DNA of 20,782 nt from a virus: positions 1 through 20,782 of IMG/VR virus record IMGVR_UViG_3300021859_000214. The stretch is one strand, 5' to 3'. Shown one piece after another: positions 2,993 to 12,319 of the stretch (within the stretch, counting starts at the first letter, position 1; each line of letters opens with the position of its first letter). The notes beneath the pieces were generated by a model. It was given only the letters and a program-made list of their open reading frames with translations. It was not told where the DNA came from and searched no databases. Position numbers and translations under genes: made by a program.

Positions 2993-4882
2993 TCAGACCT
3001 CGCCGAGCTCTCGGAAGTACGCATCGAGCTCACGGCGCGTGCTGCGCATCACCTCGTCGGCGACGGATTCCGGATCCTGCGATCCATTGATGTAGATCTC
3101 TTGCCGAATCGAGACGTCGCCGTACCTGCCGCCGACCGCTGCCGAGTCGAAGCTCGGAGGCGGCGCACGGAAGCTCGATGCTTCGGGACCGTAGTAGCTG
3201 CTCGAGCTCGCCGCAGGCTCCGCGACTTCGGGAACCGTCCACGAGGACACCGCGCGAGAGGAGCTCGCGAGCATGGCACGGGTCGACGCCTCGATGCGCG
3301 AGCCTCCCGCTTCCATGCCGACGGCAAACCCGGCTGAGGTCTGAAGTCCCAAGCGTTCGAAGACGCGCGACGGAGAGTGAATGCCGAGCGCTGCCTGGAC
3401 GCCTTTGACGACACCGACCAGCGCCCCGATCGCAGCGTCGAGCGGGAGGTGAGCGGCCGACCAAATGCCCTTCGCCAGTCCCGCGAGCAGCTGCTTGCCG
3501 ATCTCGAAAGACTTCGAGACGAGTCCGAGCCCCTTGTCGTTCCACGTCGCAGTGAGCGTGTCCCACCAATCGACGATCGCGGCCGCTCGCCGCATCAGCG
3601 GCTCGAAGATCCCCATCGCCAGAGCCTTGCCGAACTCCCAAAGCTTGCCGCCGGCAAGCACCACCGTAGCGCCGAGCCCAGCCAGGGCGATTCCGAAGCC
3701 GACCGCAAGCGCAGAGGCCTCGCCGAGCGTCGTTGCGAGCTGCATCGCCAGCTCGAGACCGTTGCCGCCGCTGAGCGAGCCGAAGAGAGCATCCGCGCCG
3801 GTCACCATCTGATCCCACGCGCGACCGAAGCCGGACCCGAAGGCCTGCGAGAGCTTGATTCCGACGTCGAGCGCCTTCTCGAGCCCGACAGCCATGCGCT
3901 CGATCAGCGCGGCGCCCTCGGGGCTTGAGAGGAAGGTCGTGAACCGCGTGAGGCCCTCGCCGGCGAGCTTCGTGAGTGGCGTGGTGACGCGCTCGAATAG
4001 CTTGACGCCTGCGTCCTGGCTCCATGCGGTGAAGCGACCCGAGATACCCTCGAGGGTCTGATCAGCGAACTTCGCGCCCGCCTGGCCGAGCTCCGACTGA
4101 TTCAGCTTGCGATTGATGGCTCGCTCGATCGCCACAAGGCCGACGTCCGCGGACAGCTTTCCCTGCTCCTGCAGCTGCCGCACCTGGTCGAGGCTCTTGC
4201 CGCCGAGGAGCTTCCCGGCCTCCTCCCAGACGAGTTGTTGGCTCACGCCGCGCTCGGCTAGCTGCAGCATCTCCTCGGCCTGCACTCGACCCTTCGCTTT
4301 GATCTGCCCGAGTGCGATCAGAAGCCCGCTCGTCTCTTCCTTTGTGGCGCCAGTCGCAGCGCGCAGGTCCGCGGTCATCTTGACGAGCTTGTCGATCTCC
4401 TTCGGATTGAACTGCAGCGCGAGCAGCTTCTGGTACTGCTTCGTCGTGTCGAAGAGGTCGAGACCGAAGCGCCGCGCGAGCGCGCTCGAGTGCTCGAACA
4501 ACTTGGCTCCGCCTACGCCGAAGTGGTCGAGGTTCGCCAGAGCCAGCCGGGAGTTTTGACCAAAGAAGATGAGGTCGCGCCCGGCGCGCACGGCTTCGGC
4601 GCCGACCTGCGCGAGCTTCGCAACCGCCAGCGTCAGCAGCCCGCCCTTGAAGACGTCGAGTGCGCCGCCGAATCCGCGAGTCGACCGCTCGGCGCTCCCC
4701 ATCCCCGAAGCGAAGCGACCGCCTGCAACGGTCGCCCGGTCGAGACCGCCGGCAAGCCTGCCCGTGCCGCGCGCGGTGCGCCCGAGACCGCGCTCGAGGC
4801 CGCTCAAGCCTCGAGCCGCACTGCGCGCGCCACCGGTGACCTTGTCGATCAGCCGTACGGTGAAGTTCGCGCTGTCCGTCAT
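2993..4882 (-). CDS. Tail tape measure protein
   Basis: At 629 residues this is the longest gene here and it follows the frameshifted chaperone, as tape measures nearly always do. The N-terminus (MTDSANFTVRLIDKVTGGAR) is followed by a glycine/arginine-rich helical region. At about residues 100 to 260 is the tape-measure N-terminal domain, with DLRAATGATKEETSGLLIAL and KGRVQAEEMLQLAERG. Residues about 375 to 425 are strongly hydrophobic and could insert in the host membrane during DNA entry. Near residue 500 is GIHSPSRVFERLG, a motif often seen in tape-measure C-termini. The tail end has YINGSQDPESVADEVMRSTR. At about 0.15 nm per residue the tail would be near 94 nm. ATG at 4882 directly follows the -1 frame stop at 4887. 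Confidence 0.94.
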   Translation of the reverse strand: MTDSANFTVRLIDKVTGGARSAARGLSGLERGLGRTARGTGRLAGGLDRATVAGGRFASGMGSAERSTRGFGGALDVFKGGLLTLAVAKLAQVGAEAVRAGRDLIFFGQNSRLALANLDHFGVGGAKLFEHSSALARRFGLDLFDTTKQYQKLLALQFNPKEIDKLVKMTADLRAATGATKEETSGLLIALGQIKAKGRVQAEEMLQLAERGVSQQLVWEEAGKLLGGKSLDQVRQLQEQGKLSADVGLVAIERAINRKLNQSELGQAGAKFADQTLEGISGRFTAWSQDAGVKLFERVTTPLTKLAGEGLTRFTTFLSSPEGAALIERMAVGLEKALDVGIKLSQAFGSGFGRAWDQMVTGADALFGSLSGGNGLELAMQLATTLGEASALAVGFGIALAGLGATVVLAGGKLWEFGKALAMGIFEPLMRRAAAIVDWWDTLTATWNDKGLGLVSKSFEIGKQLLAGLAKGIWSAAHLPLDAAIGALVGVVKGVQAALGIHSPSRVFERLGLQTSAGFAVGMEAGGSRIEASTRAMLASSSRAVSSWTVPEVAEPAASSSSYYGPEASSFRAPPPSFDSAAVGGRYGDVSIRQEIYINGSQDPESVADEVMRSTRRELDAYFRELGEV

Positions 4883-4886
4883 GCCG

Positions 4887-5392
4887 TCACCTGCGCTTGC
4901 TCAGCGCCTTCATGTACGCGACGACGGCCGTGCGAATGGTACGGATGTCGTCGAGCGCCTCGGCAACGATGAGCGCGCCGGCCCAGTCCTCGTCACTGTC
5001 GTCCTGCCGCAAGAACGCACGAAGGGCGCGCGCGGAGAGATAGGGTCTCCGTCGCGCGCCCTCCCAGAGCTTCAGCCTTTTTTTACGACGATCTCGATTC
5101 CCTCGCGGGCCAGGTCGCTAAGCTCGTCGGCGACCAGCCCGGGAGCCATCGGACGCGACTCGAAGAGCTTCGTGAGCGCCTCGAGCTCGCCGTAGACGAG
5201 GGTGCGCTGCGACATCTCGCGGAACGCGACCCCGGGCGCCGCCTTGCGAATCTTCTCCTGGCTGTCCTCCCACTCTTCAAGAGTCGGTCGCCGAAAGGCG
5301 AAGGCGACATGCCCCTCGAACCTGAGCTCGACGAGATTGCCGTGCTCCTTGCGGAGCTCGGCGAGCTTTGGATCTTCCTTGCCTTCGGCCAT
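4887..5392 (-). CDS. Tail assembly chaperone, long form made by -1 ribosomal frameshift
   Basis: The zero frame reads GTA AAA AAA GGC TGA. Slipping back one base on A AAA AAA continues as AGG CTG AAG and stays open for 63 more codons to a TGA at 4889-4887, seven bases before the tape-measure ATG. The product would be about 168 residues: 105 from the zero frame and 63 from the -1 frame. The extension contains RALRAFLRQDDSDEDWAGAL and ends in MKALSKRR, mostly helical. This matches lambda gpG/gpGT and P2 gpE/gpE', where a minority of ribosomes shift and the extended form binds the tape measure. An 18-bp stem follows the slippery run. A sequencing indel is less likely, because the upstream frame already ends sensibly and the slippery heptamer is canonical. 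Confidence 0.87.
5021..5084 (-). promoter_or_regulatory. Programmed -1 frameshift signal: A7 slippery run plus downstream hairpin
   Basis: On the coding strand seven adenines (5084 to 5078) lie in the phase A AAA AAA. After 13 bases a stem begins: 5064-5053 pairs with 5032-5021 and 5051-5046 pairs with 5038-5033, giving 18 pairs including one G-U. There is a bulged A at 5052 and a seven-base loop (CCCTATC) at 5045-5039. The zero-frame stop lies within the spacer. The 13-base spacer is longer than the 5 to 9 bases typical of known sites, so the spacing is unusual although the elements themselves are classic. Confidence 0.82.
5072..5392 (-). CDS. Tail assembly chaperone, short (zero-frame) form
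   Basis: This 106-residue protein begins MAEGKEDPKLAELRKEHGNL. It lies between the tube and tape-measure genes, the fixed location of the gpG/gpE-type chaperones that coat the tape measure before the tube polymerises. The fold looks mixed, with ELRFEGHVAFAFRRPTLEEW followed by helices, as in many phage tail chaperones. It ends in VVKKG, the lysines being encoded by a run of seven adenines on the coding strand just before the stop. That run is the slippery site for the longer product described separately. The start at 5392 is three bases after the tube gene stop. Confidence 0.88.
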   Translation of the reverse strand: MAEGKEDPKLAELRKEHGNLVELRFEGHVAFAFRRPTLEEWEDSQEKIRKAAPGVAFREMSQRTLVYGELEALTKLFESRPMAPGLVADELSDLAREGIEIVVKKG

Positions 5393-5395
5393 GCG

Positions 5396-5854
5396 CTACC
5401 TCGTGAGGGCAGGCATCCCGCTGTGCGGGACCTTGCCGTTGATCTTCTTCACCATGAAGCTGAACGTGATGTCGCCACCGAGAGCATCCGAGCCGCTCTC
5501 GTGCGAAAGCGGCTCGCTCAGCAGGCGGCAGCCTTCGCAGGTGTTGCGGATGTTCGGTCGGCCTGGCGACGTCAGCACCCAGCTCAGGGTGAAGATCTTC
5601 TCGCGCCACGCGTTGCCCAGGTGCGCGATGAAGCGCTCCCGCTCCGCTTCGTCCGAGAAGGTGATCGACCCCTCGCCGAGCCCCATGCTGCCGACCGTTC
5701 GCGCGAGCGGGTATGGCCGCGTGCCCATCACGACGCCCTCCTCGGTCGGCTGATCCGCCGAGACGTTGCTGATCCCGGTGAAGATGATGCGGTCGAGCGT
5801 GAGCTCGCCGCGCGCGAACGAGTAGGCGAAGCCTTGCGTGTCGGGGTAACCCAT
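5396..5854 (-). CDS. Tail tube protein
   Basis: This 152-residue protein begins MGYPDTQGFAYSFARGEL and lies directly after the sheath gene, where contractile phages encode the inner tube. It contains FTGISNVSADQPTEEGVVMG, TRPYPLARTVGSMGLGEGS and DALGGDITFSFMVKKINGK, strands of the small beta-barrel tube fold that stacks in hexameric rings. Length and order suit the family. Two cysteines occur in NTCEGCRLL (CxxC), which might bind a metal or form a disulphide. The start is ten bases after the sheath stop. I am confident of the role from position and motif pattern, without a database comparison. Confidence 0.87.
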   Translation of the reverse strand: MGYPDTQGFAYSFARGELTLDRIIFTGISNVSADQPTEEGVVMGTRPYPLARTVGSMGLGEGSITFSDEAERERFIAHLGNAWREKIFTLSWVLTSPGRPNIRNTCEGCRLLSEPLSHESGSDALGGDITFSFMVKKINGKVPHSGMPALTR

Positions 5855-5864
5855 TGCGCCTCCG

Positions 5865-7337
5865 TTACGCCGCCGCGGCCGACGGCAGCTCGGCGACGTA
5901 TCCGAGCGTGTTGGTGATGTAGTCGACGTACCCGCGCGGGAGCAGCCCCGTCTCGGTGATGATGACTCCCGTCGACAGGAAGTTGTTGGTGCGCGAAACC
6001 TTGAACCTCAGGTCGGAGAGATACCCGGGCTTGCCGTCCGCGTTCAGAGGCTCGAGCAACGCGCTCGCGAGGCGACGGGCGACGTCGTCTTCGATCGCGT
6101 CGGCGTCGGCATCGTAGATTTGACCGCTGCCGTCGTCCTTCACGCGGAGGTCGGCGCCGATGTACTCGAGCATGGCCGCATCGACGATCTCGGTCGCGAT
6201 GTCGATCAGGATGCCGAGCGGCCAGAGCTTGAAGTCCGACCCCGACGGGCTCTTGAGCCGCGCCTGTGTGATGTAGAAACCCGCTCGATGCGGCAGCGTG
6301 CGCAGGGTGCTGATCTTGTTGTCGTCGAGCTGGCTCGCGGTGAGGTGCTCGTCGTGAAAGAGCTTCACGAGTCCGTCGAGCGAACCCGACTTCACCCGCT
6401 TGAGGTCTGTGCTCGGCAAGCTGCCGGCTGCGCGCGCCGCGAAGACGTCGATCCCGTGCGTGACAGGGAACGCGTACCCCGGAAACGGCTTGCTCGTCGC
6501 GCGCCGCACCATCCCGTACGAGAGCAGGCAGCGGGCAGCCGTGGTCGACGCGAAGGCCGTCACGACCGCGGCCGCAGTGTCCTCGCCAGCGTCAGCCGCC
6601 AGCATGCCGCGACGATGCCGCCCTCCGACCGCAAGCGTCGCGAGTTGCGACTGCAGCGCGGCCGCGATGGTGGCGTGCCCGCTCGCCCCACCGTTGGCCT
6701 TGCTGAGCACGCCGACGAAGAACCGCCACGAGGCGTTGGACGCCGCGAGCGCAGCGAAGGCCTCCGCGAGGTCGCTGCTGTTCCAGGCCGCGCACTCGAC
6801 GTCCGCCTCGTAGGTATCCCCGACGACATACGTGCCCGCCGTGAAGGTGAGCGTGATGCCGAGGCCGGGGATCGCGAAGCTCCCACCGGCGGGAGTCGCG
6901 AGGACCTCGCTGTAGGTGCGCTCGGAATCGGTCACGCCGGCATAGCCGTCGCAGCAGTACTTGAAGCGCGAGGTGCCGAGCGCGCCGCCCGTCACGATGA
7001 CGATGCGCAGCCGGGCGTCGACAGCGGCGTCCCCCGACAGCGTGATATCCGGGCCCGAGCCGACCTTGGTGACCGTTCCGTTGCTCGCCGCGACCGTGGC
7101 GTCGGCGCCGATGAAGATGATGGGACCGCCACCCTTCTCGAGCACGTACACGGCCGTCGCGACGCCCGGGCCTTCGCCGCGGGCGTCGCGCAGGGACTGC
7201 GGGTCCGAGTAGGGCTCGAGCGCGTTCGTGGCACCCAGGGTCGAGCGACCGAAGATGACGGGCACCATCGAGGCCGGTGGCGTGAGGCCGAGGCCAAAGT
7301 CGCGCTGCGTGGATGTCGACGACGGAATCGCTGGCAT
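5865..7337 (-). CDS. Contractile tail sheath protein
   Basis: This 490-residue protein begins MPAIPSSTSTQRDFGLGLTP. Sheath-like features are the N-terminal PVIFGRSTLGATNALEPYSD, a central domain with FFVGVLSKANGG and a C-terminal third with HRAGFYITQARLKSPSGSDF, DDVARRLASALLEPLNADG and RTNNFLSTGVIITETGLLPR. The last two are the typical core that binds the tube and links neighbouring subunits. The gene lies before the tube gene and starts at ATG 7337, overlapping the upstream TAA as TAATG. Residues 94 to 181 form an inserted beta-rich module (VTGG..GTSRFKY..DG..GITLTFTAGTY) that resembles a module in the capsid protein. Adjacent cysteines occur at residues 128-129. Confidence 0.93.
   Translation of the reverse strand: MPAIPSSTSTQRDFGLGLTPPASMVPVIFGRSTLGATNALEPYSDPQSLRDARGEGPGVATAVYVLEKGGGPIIFIGADATVAASNGTVTKVGSGPDITLSGDAAVDARLRIVIVTGGALGTSRFKYCCDGYAGVTDSERTYSEVLATPAGGSFAIPGLGITLTFTAGTYVVGDTYEADVECAAWNSSDLAEAFAALAASNASWRFFVGVLSKANGGASGHATIAAALQSQLATLAVGGRHRRGMLAADAGEDTAAAVVTAFASTTAARCLLSYGMVRRATSKPFPGYAFPVTHGIDVFAARAAGSLPSTDLKRVKSGSLDGLVKLFHDEHLTASQLDDNKISTLRTLPHRAGFYITQARLKSPSGSDFKLWPLGILIDIATEIVDAAMLEYIGADLRVKDDGSGQIYDADADAIEDDVARRLASALLEPLNADGKPGYLSDLRFKVSRTNNFLSTGVIITETGLLPRGYVDYITNTLGYVAELPSAAAA
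6795..7058 (-). repeat. Inserted beta-type module in the sheath, similar to one in the capsid protein
   Basis: Sheath residues 94 to 181 read GPDITLSGDAAVDARLRI, then VIVTGG, GTSRFKYCCDG, and GITLTFTAGTYVVGDTYEA. The capsid module has the same order: PAVTVAGTPLGPWALVI, DIVTGG, GTATFRFSTDGG, and GITATFANGTYNADNTYTA. The copies are similar at protein level rather than identical at DNA level, so this is an old or independently acquired shared domain and not a recent duplication. Confidence 0.68.
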
Positions 7338-10583: not shown

Positions 10584-11078
10584 CTAGCGCTTCTTGCTCT
10601 TCGGAGACTTGCTCGAGGTCGCGTCGTCCGAAGAGCTCTCGCCGCCGGTCTCGTCCGGGGCCGCGCTCGCGGCCGCCTCGAGCTGCTGCTCCAGCTCGGC
10701 GGTGCGATTCCAGACCTGCTCGAAGGCGCCCTCGAGCTCGAGGATGCGCTCCGACCGCTTCTCGAGCTCGGCGTCGCGTCGGCGGATCTCGCCGGCGGCA
10801 GACTCGAGCGCTTCCTTGGCCTCGGTGAGCGTGAGCTCGACCTCGGGAAGCCCTTCGGCGCGGAGGGTGAGCGTCGAAGTCGCCCGGGCCTCCTCGAGCG
10901 CAGCCTCGAGCTCGGCGATGCGTGCTTGCGGGTCGCCGCCGGAGCGCGAGAGACGGTTCTGCGCCTCCTGCACCGCGACACGCTCCGCGTACGGTGTTGC
11001 GTCGAGCGGGGCCGGCTGCGGCGCGCCATCCCGGCGCGCCGCCTCCTCCCGCGCGCGCATGCGCTGGCCGGTGATCAC
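10584..11078 (-). CDS. Coiled-coil protein directly after the major capsid gene
   Basis: This protein of about 164 residues probably starts at GTG 11078, which overlaps the capsid TGA as GTGA and has GGAG six bases upstream. The alternative ATG 11060 lacks a ribosome site. After a polar N-terminus (AREEAARRDGAPQPAPLDAT) it has long charged heptad-like helices: ARIAELEAALEEARATS, LTLTEAKEALESAAGEIRRR and RILELEGAFEQVWNRTAELE. The C-terminus is serine/lysine-rich (SSSDDATSSKSPKSKKR). It could be a capsid accessory or decoration protein; its place after the capsid gene argues against it being the scaffold, which appears to be part of the protease gene. No family recognised. Confidence 0.76.
   Translation of the reverse strand: MITGQRMRAREEAARRDGAPQPAPLDATPYAERVAVQEAQNRLSRSGGDPQARIAELEAALEEARATSTLTLRAEGLPEVELTLTEAKEALESAAGEIRRRDAELEKRSERILELEGAFEQVWNRTAELEQQLEAAASAAPDETGGESSSDDATSSKSPKSKKR
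11018..11042 (-). other. Perfect inverted repeat (10-bp stem, 5-base loop) just after the capsid gene
   Basis: Bases 11018-11027 are perfectly complementary to 11033-11042 around the loop 11028-11032. Each arm contains GGCGCGCC. It lies 33 bases after the capsid stop, inside the coiled-coil gene. No T-run follows, so it is not a typical intrinsic terminator. It could shield the 3' end of capsid mRNA or slow ribosomes, or it may simply reflect GC-rich coding sequence. Confidence 0.55.
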
Positions 11079-12319
11079 TGACCGCTCCAGTTGCGCACGT
11101 TGTGCTTGATCGCGACCACGCCCGGCCGCGAGCCGCCACGACGCCGGCGGTACAGCAGCGACGCGTGGTAGAGGTGCAGCGCGAGGATGTCGGCGTCGGC
11201 GAGGATGTCCTCGTCGCGCTTGGGGATGAGCGCGTCGGCGTTGTACCAGAACGCGCCGGCGCCGGCCTGGCAGATCATCGAGGTGACCTTGAGGATCGCG
11301 TTTGCGGTGTACGTGTTGTCGGCGTTGTAGGTGCCGTTGGCGAAGGTCGCGGTGATCCCGGTCTTGCCGTTGGCGCCCACGAGGGAGTCGATGGCCGTGT
11401 CGCTCAGGAGGATCGCGCCGCCGCCGTTCGGGACGGTGAGCGTCGCCGACCAGGTGTTGCCGCCGTCGGTCGAGAATCGGAAGGTCGCGGTGCCGTTCGA
11501 AAGACCACCGGTGACGATGTCGATCACGAGCGCCCACGGCCCGAGCGGCGTGCCCGCCACCGTCACCGCAGGAGGGGTCGTGCCGGCTGCCGTGACGGCG
11601 CTCATGCTCGATCCGGTCAGAGGGACCCGATCGCTCACCAGCAAGCGCATGCCGGCGAAGGTCTTTTCGATGCTGCGACCCTGCGGGCTCTCGCGGATGG
11701 ACTGCACGTAGAGCGGGCGGCCCTGGTCGTCCTGCATCGACGCGAGGTCCGCCTCGGCCTCGGAGTGCGTGACCATGGCCACGATGGTCTCCTGCTCGTC
11801 GCCGAACTTCGCCCGCGAGCGCACCGCGAGCGAGTGATCGAGGTAGACGGGGTTGCTGGTGCTGAAGACGTCGTTGACCAGCGGCGTGGCCGCGAACGCC
11901 GCGGTCATCACATCGTCGGCGTAGCGCGTCGCCTGCTCCATGGCCTGACGCGCGCCCTCGTCATGGGGATCGACGAGCGCCGGGTCGACGGCAGCCACGC
12001 CTTGGGCCCACCGGCTCGTTTCGACGGCCAGTGAGCCGCGCGCGATGGTCGCCTGCTCGCTCGTCATGCCGAGCTTCTCGGGCGTGATGGCGCTGCCGTC
12101 CGGGTTGTTGACCATCGGCCCGATGGTGCCGAAGTACGGCACGTCGATCGTCTTGCCGATCGCGCTGCGACCGCCCTGCGGCATGGTGCCTCGCACCATC
12201 ACGGCTCCGCTGGAAACGAGCGCCGAGCCCATGAAGGCGTTCTGGCCGCGGAAAACCCCTCGGATTGCGTCCTCGAGGATCTGCGGGGTGATGATGTCGG
12301 ACTGAATCGTGATGGCCAT
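11075..12319 (-). CDS. Major capsid protein (probable HK97 fold) with an inserted beta module
   Basis: This 414-residue protein begins MAITIQSDIITPQILEDAIR and follows the protease/scaffold gene, the classic capsid position. A ribosome site AAGGA lies about ten bases upstream. Core segments include MVRGTMPQGGRSAIGKTIDV, FDTV-type strands in this region (PYFGTIGPMV), DPHDEGARQAMEQATRYADD (long helix), LASMQDDQGRPLYVQSIRES and RLLVSDRVPLTG. The C-terminal ICQAGAGAFWYN and RDEDILADADILALHLYH are typical capsid features of the P-domain and the end of the chain. Residues about 245 to 341 are an extra beta-rich module (VTGG, GTATFRFSTDGG, GITATFANGTY) sitting in a loop between VPLTG and ICQAGAG, probably displayed on the capsid surface. 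Confidence 0.9.
   Translation of the reverse strand: MAITIQSDIITPQILEDAIRGVFRGQNAFMGSALVSSGAVMVRGTMPQGGRSAIGKTIDVPYFGTIGPMVNNPDGSAITPEKLGMTSEQATIARGSLAVETSRWAQGVAAVDPALVDPHDEGARQAMEQATRYADDVMTAAFAATPLVNDVFSTSNPVYLDHSLAVRSRAKFGDEQETIVAMVTHSEAEADLASMQDDQGRPLYVQSIRESPQGRSIEKTFAGMRLLVSDRVPLTGSSMSAVTAAGTTPPAVTVAGTPLGPWALVIDIVTGGLSNGTATFRFSTDGGNTWSATLTVPNGGGAILLSDTAIDSLVGANGKTGITATFANGTYNADNTYTANAILKVTSMICQAGAGAFWYNADALIPKRDEDILADADILALHLYHASLLYRRRRGGSRPGVVAIKHNVRNWSGQ
11297..11587 (-). repeat. Inserted beta-type module in the capsid, similar to one in the sheath
   Basis: Capsid residues about 245 to 341 interrupt the fold between VSDRVPLTG and ICQAGAGAFWYN, and the flanks read as a continuous capsid sequence if the module is removed. 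Its order PAVTVAG, VTGG, GTATFRF, DGGNTW, GITATF, GTYNADNTYT matches the sheath module at 6795-7058, so the two proteins share a domain. Confidence 0.68.

Follow-up and report, generated by a model that had tools for sequence, protein, structure and literature searches.

Introduction

Programmed -1 frameshifting in tail-assembly genes is widely known in tailed phages, and lambda gpG/gpGT and P2 E/E' are among the described systems closest to the locus analyzed here. The slip heptamer of lambda is G GGA AAG, and slippage of Lys-tRNA on A AAA AAA is a standard mechanism that needs no RNA structure. Runs of seven to eight A residues can also cause some slippage of RNA polymerase. Stems known to stimulate such transcriptional slippage sit upstream of the run (PMC5009743). 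Among bacterial ribosomal frameshift sites, stems of the IS3 family begin 4-10 nt after the motif, the published bacterial range (PMC4066793), and the spacer of E. coli dnaX is 5 nt, while cardioviruses have a stem-loop 13-14 nt past the shift site and require protein 2A (PMC6735917).

The window, by which we mean the whole virus record of 20,782 bases, encodes, on its minus strand, head and tail proteins of a phage with a contractile tail. Directly before the tape-measure gene it has a slip site of the standard kind, which makes it a new case of a frameshift that is expected for tailed phages, followed at an uncommon distance by a GC-rich hairpin. Here we compare this arrangement with that of relatives gathered by sheath-based searches, which comprise Mx4, Thermus and Meiothermus phages, and more than 100 viral contigs.

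Gene order and identity of the predicted chaperone

The window sequence has a GC content of 68%, and the minus strand carries, in order, a DUF2586-family sheath, a presumed tube protein, an ORF of 106 aa and the tape-measure protein (Table 1). As in chaperone frameshifts of the lambda G/GT type, the interval between tube and tape measure holds two overlapping frames. The presumed tube protein matched no family in Pfam or PHROGs, and Rfam gave no match in the whole window. Elsewhere in the tail and head genes, the C-terminal part of the major capsid protein (window 11075-12319, residues about 240-340) and the sheath (residues about 96-180) have a module of ~100 residues in common (36% identity, E 8e-7; against the extra copy in the sheath of L003, 41%, E 7e-14), and in L003 and relatives like it the sheath seems to contain this module as a tandem duplicate.

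Table 1. Features of the tail locus, in window coordinates.
Feature	Position	Strand	Basis
Tail sheath (DUF2586)	5865..7337	-	Pfam DUF2586, E 1e-7; PHROG 907 tail sheath
Presumed tail tube protein	5396..5854	-	placed between sheath and chaperone; no other basis
0-frame product, 106 aa, predicted tail assembly chaperone (gpG-like)	5072..5392	-	ORF; fold; PHROG match of a relative
Slippery heptamer A AAA AAA	5078..5084	-	sequence; sole A7 in window; same place and phase in relatives
0-frame stop UGA, one sense codon (GGC) past the heptamer	5072..5074	-	sequence; stop there in most relatives
-1 frame extension, 63 sense codons and stop	4887..5078	-	reading frame; fused product 37-55% identical to relatives
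13-nt spacer	5065..5077	-	no selection for pairing detected
5' arm, conserved 12-bp outer stem	5053..5064	-	RNAfold; in-register pairing in relatives
Bulged A	5052	-	RNAfold
5' arm, inner 6-bp stem	5046..5051	-	RNAfold; in-register pairing not conserved
7-nt loop CCCUAUC	5039..5045	-	not conserved in relatives
3' arm, inner stem	5033..5038	-	RNAfold
3' arm, conserved 12-bp outer stem, encoding part of ARAL	5021..5032	-	RNAfold; in-register pairing in relatives
Tape-measure protein	2993..4882	-	Pfam TMP_3, E 6e-15; PHROGs tape measure

We predict that the 106-aa product is a tail assembly chaperone from its position, a confident structural model and a weak PHROG match in relatives. The AlphaFold model has a pLDDT of 93.6, and its best fold match is 3fgx, an uncharacterised Bacillus protein (Z 10.6), followed by the HK97 tail assembly chaperone 2ob9 (Z 5.4); the corresponding ORF of a relative matches PHROG 344, tail assembly chaperone, with E 0.0012. 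The 106-aa protein itself had no match in Pfam, single-sequence searches with the chaperone returned nothing in viral contigs and only weak Mx4 matches in phages, and the plasmid collection contained no relatives of the sheath. In L003 (7206-7814), L017 and L020 the 0-frame chaperones are about 180-200 aa long, and their N-terminal domain is apparently present twice.

Slip site and -1 extension

Read on the minus strand, the site is GTC GTA AAA AAA GGC TGA, which places A AAA AAA in phase, as an earlier note on this DNA had claimed. The same note had put a zero-frame TGA right after the A-run, and the stop is indeed there, with a GGC codon intervening. The -1 frame continues from AGG at 5078-5076 through AGG at 4892-4890 to TGA at 4889-4887, after which come CGGC and the tape-measure ATG at 4882; the extension therefore has the 63 codons described, and the seven bases said to separate it from that ATG consist of the stop codon and CGGC. 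All coordinates given in that note are correct. The -1 frame opens just 11 codons ahead of the heptamer, no plausible start of its own lies near the beginning of the extension, and judging from the frames the extension would be reachable by frameshift alone. Neither strand of the 20.8 kb has another run of seven or more A, and tandem AAA AAA appears a single time among the 15 listed genes, which encode Lys by AAA 15 times versus 182 times by AAG (182/197).

By the mechanism that we propose, some of the ribosomes on the 106-aa chaperone would slip one base back at A AAA AAA, at a certain rate, as the two Lys-tRNAs re-pair one base back, and would read 63 codons more, whereas unshifted ribosomes would terminate at the next codon but one. 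Slipping would give a C-terminally extended chaperone. If the division of labor follows that of lambda gpG/gpGT, coating of the tape-measure protein would fall to the short form and recruitment of the tube to the long one.

Conservation of the frameshift site in relatives

An in-phase heptamer occupies the homologous place, near the end of the ORF preceding the tape measure, in 64 non-identical loci (some of them near-copies), a count that by itself is no test of phase because the locus filter required an in-phase motif. The -1 extensions of these loci span 46-78 codons and finish at the tape-measure start. A AAA AAA is found in 37 of the loci and G GGA AAA in 13, alongside the rarer A AAA AAG/C, G GGA AAG/C, C CCT TTC, T TTT TTG/C and G GGT TTT. 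The coding strand of the A7 loci totals 349 kb and has 41 runs of seven or more A, 37 of which are the slip sites. Moreover, the extension protein is conserved in relatives (ARALRAF...DWAGAL), and on the sheath tree the heptamer switches many times while the arrangement, in both frame and position, persists.

The earlier note had read the site as a tail-chaperone frameshift and had named two frames always encoded as separate genes as a sign against that reading. In the loci that we read there were no independently started separate frames, and the homologues retain both an in-phase slippery heptamer and a homologous extension, in agreement with that reading. As a sequence feature the frameshift is near certain, and comparison among relatives strongly supports an evolutionarily conserved, programmed -1 frameshift that would yield two versions of the tail-assembly protein.

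Five loci (L108, L113, L116, L121 and L122) have an open -1 extension and no X XXY YYZ heptamer; they carry A_AAA tetramers before the stop (CGA AAA GGG, TCA AAA CCC, GAA AAA CTC), possible weaker or single-tRNA slip sites.

A branch of 15 Thermus/Meiothermus loci (L005 (Riverbug), L006 (MMP7), L008, L026, L030-L032, L034, L035, L039, L041-L043, L045 and L046), which forms one clade on the sheath tree, has no -1 heptamer where the ORF preceding the tape measure ends, and a similar extension, RDLxxAARCLLAYxRG, is located in the +1 frame. All 15 loci (13 distinct ends) share a UUU codon, read in frame and with C as the next base (UUU_CUG or UUU_CGN), at 4-16 codons ahead of the 0-frame stop, and this conserved site uses UUU even though Phe codons in the branch are UUC 589 times versus UUU 311 times. 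GenBank records list separate proteins. This pattern suggests a +1 frameshift in the Thermus/Meiothermus branch, and with it a change in the direction of the shift within the family. UUU_CGN resembles the influenza PA-X site.

A hairpin 13 nt after the heptamer

RNAfold of a 70-nt stretch reproduces the hairpin that the earlier note had drawn, an 18-pair stem with one bulged A from 5064 to 5021 behind a 13-base spacer (dG -36.9, centroid), starting 7 nt past the UGA. The MFE of the stretch is -38.5 (dinucleotide-shuffle z -4.4, 0/200 shuffles as stable), and the stem is the most stable segment of 44 nt among 10,369 sampled on the coding strand; in a 151-nt context the stem persists with a z of only -1.1, at which the fold is not exceptional. 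The 5' arm codes for WxxxRR (WEGARRR in the window) and the 3' arm for ARAL. The very GC-rich stem, which had been called unusual, is GC-rich as described, but this composition is largely explained by the GC-rich codons of the Arg and Ala residues.

The clade set comprises 14 rows on the sheath tree including the window (WIN), in which the spacer and the first 22 codons of the extension align gap-free, and the outer pairs are defined as positions 14-25 with 46-57 after the heptamer. All 12 outer pairs are present in the window, L012, L013, L014 and L105, the last of which was fetched after the stem had been defined; L015, L078 and L019 have 11, as does L086 (a near-copy of L015), and L087 has nine. 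Leaving aside the near-copy L086, eight relatives besides the window thus carry the 12-bp stem in register (9-12 of 12 pairs), in each case behind a spacer of exactly 13 nt. The relatives without the window form 119 of 156 in-register pairs, against 91.8±5.1 under synonymous shuffling (z 5.3), and L012, L013, L014, L019 and L105 each reach p <0.005. The search for covariation across homologues that the earlier note had proposed found compensatory changes: covariation is 0.264 versus 0.152 in shuffles (0/500) and at most 0.133 with the partners slid, in cells that derive from only 14 related sequences, and five outer pairs have changed on both sides, e.g., CG -> AU -> GC. The best single uninterrupted helix falls at 12-14 nt in only 6 of the 14 clade members, versus 11% of nulls, and we judged the in-register test to be better; RNAalifold on the full 14-row alignment kept only 4 pairs, owing to the stem-less members.

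L011, which is closely related to the window on the tree, lacks the stem, and in L003, L017, L020 and L096 of the same clade it is missing, eroded or shifted; the heptamers of these loci are intact. The case of L011 implies that the stem is not obligatory. Since the early branches L019 and L105 have it, the stem is probably ancestral in the clade and was lost repeatedly. Within the spacer, pairing in the clade does not exceed the null, which indicates that the selected structure begins at 13 nt. We also considered a lower stem closing the spacer, by which the structure would start nearer to the heptamer, and rejected it; short lower pairs occur in the window, L013 and L014, with an energy gain at the null level. 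The loop sequence varies across the clade and shows no conserved protein-binding motif, and so lends no support to a loop-binding protein.

Collectively, selection on the hairpin as RNA is well supported at the clade level and applies to most of the clade, with compensatory changes beyond protein constraint. This agrees with the suggestion of the earlier note that the stem is under two constraints, as its arms encode protein and its pairing exceeds the synonymous expectation.

Possible role of the stem

The 13-base spacer that had been remarked on as unusual is real, conserved in the clade and outside the published bacterial range, and it exceeds the distance at which E. coli ribosomes respond. 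By our arithmetic the stem is 19 nt away with the first AAA in the P site and 16 nt with the second, 13 nt with GGC in the P site and UGA in the A site, and 11 nt only in the -1 frame with CUG in the P site. At 13 nt it would make no contact with a ribosome holding the heptamer in its P and A sites, and its action is therefore probably weak, late (during decoding of GGC and UGA or of the first codons in the -1 frame) or aided by a bound factor. The description of the site as textbook overstates the case, since by published E. coli ribosome distances the stem lies beyond the reach of the normal mode of action.

Stem positions in other relatives bear on this question. Among relatives with G GGA AAA/G, the increase in mean pairing comes instead at positions 6-8 after the heptamer, and L021, L022, L023 and L033 have stems of 15-20 pairs that start 5-7 nt after it, although a significant stem is absent from some members of the group. 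We considered a strict trade-off in which A AAA AAA goes with a spacer of 13 nt and G GGA AAA with one of 5-7 nt. It fits the two clades and was rejected as a general rule, since elsewhere among the A AAA AAA loci stems begin at 5-8 nt or no clear stem is seen. L184, an A AAA AAA locus of the G GGA AAA clade, has by one measure, and not by another, a spacer of 5 nt.

As a whole, we consider the best explanation (probability roughly 0.9) to be that a -1 slip makes an extended chaperone and that the selected hairpin most likely tunes the slip. Taken separately, tuning of this frameshift is the stem's most likely job, an assignment that we favor with moderate confidence. Stimulation of the -1 shift from outside the mRNA entrance channel, in the manner of cardioviruses and arteriviruses and probably via a bound phage tail or host protein, could make the chaperone ratio regulable in infection; this more specific proposal is speculative and we think it improbable.

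Alternatively, the frameshift may be real and the hairpin may serve another role, for instance shielding the sparsely translated stretch between the stop and the tape measure from Rho or nucleases, or a role in termination. We regard this as the less likely reading, though one to be taken seriously, as the stem begins right after the stop codon and outside the known frameshift-stimulating range, several G GGA AAA relatives have stems 0-3 nt past the stop, and a close relative retains the slip site without the stem. Against it, several of the G GGA AAA/G relatives start their stems at the 5-7 nt expected for stimulation, and the arms of those stems fall in the corresponding part of the extension.

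It is very unlikely that the hairpin simply results from the GC-rich codons of conserved Arg and Ala (WKxxRR versus ARAL) and has no RNA function. The window taken alone leaves room for this, since with protein sequence and codon usage fixed in the null p is about 0.07 for the MFE and 0.017 for in-register pairs, with 9 of the 12 outer pairs already expected, and L011 and L096 show no stem. Such evidence is mild and does not settle selection; the significance comes from the relatives, where the summed in-register pairing, the five individually significant loci and the covariation described above refute a by-product for the clade as a whole, provided that the codon null is not seriously in error. 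That slippage of RNA polymerase on the A-run, which runs of this length permit to some extent, makes the fused protein in place of ribosomal slippage is extremely improbable, as homologues with G GGA AAA, G GGA AAG and C CCT TTC at the same place have no homopolymer long enough for it, the phase of the A-run fits the X XXY YYZ rule, and the stem, being downstream rather than upstream like the known stimulating stems, is untranscribed while the polymerase is on the run.

Comparison with known systems

The locus differs from lambda in that the chaperone belongs to a different protein family and the heptamer is A AAA AAA rather than G GGA AAG; to our knowledge lambda does not need a covarying downstream stem, whereas the present phage clade has one. 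In common with lambda gpG/gpGT and P2 E/E', it has a frameshift just before the tape measure, a heptamer near the end of the first ORF, an extension finishing at the tape-measure start and conservation across the phage family (PMC5009743). With E. coli dnaX and IS3 it shares an A-rich heptamer with a GC-rich stem-loop downstream, RNA-level selection on the stem as seen in covariation, and a GAGG Shine-Dalgarno-like motif, which lies 8 nt upstream in several relatives and 17 nt upstream in the window; the spacer of 13 nt departs from the distances of both. The stem matches the cardiovirus type in distance, but cardioviruses need 2A and a conserved CCC in the loop, and the CCC in the loop of the window is lacking in most relatives. 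We know of no trans-acting protein for the present phage family.

Nearer relatives include Mx4 and the Thermus/Meiothermus phages MMP7, MMP17 and Riverbug, which have the same sheath family and the same gene order. Mx4, a Myxococcus phage, has an in-phase A8, a -1 extension and a GC-rich hairpin with pairing from about 8 nt after the heptamer, and the Thermaceae phages apparently use the +1 frame instead of -1. In the Mx4 record (L002, OK085710; 3947-4494), the annotation gives p57 and p58 as two distinct hypothetical genes; they are probably one frameshifted chaperone.

We found no description of a conserved covarying stem at 13 nt in the literature searched, which covered few subscription journals and did not extend to the original papers on lambda and tail frameshifts, and the stem is apparently an undescribed variant within a known kind of frameshift. 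The family offers a natural series in which the same fused protein is made with different heptamers and with stems at ~5-7 nt, at 13 nt or none, and apparently also, in another branch, with a +1 shift. Within this series the 13-nt clade conflicts with the E. coli distance rule and provides a direct test of action outside the entrance channel.
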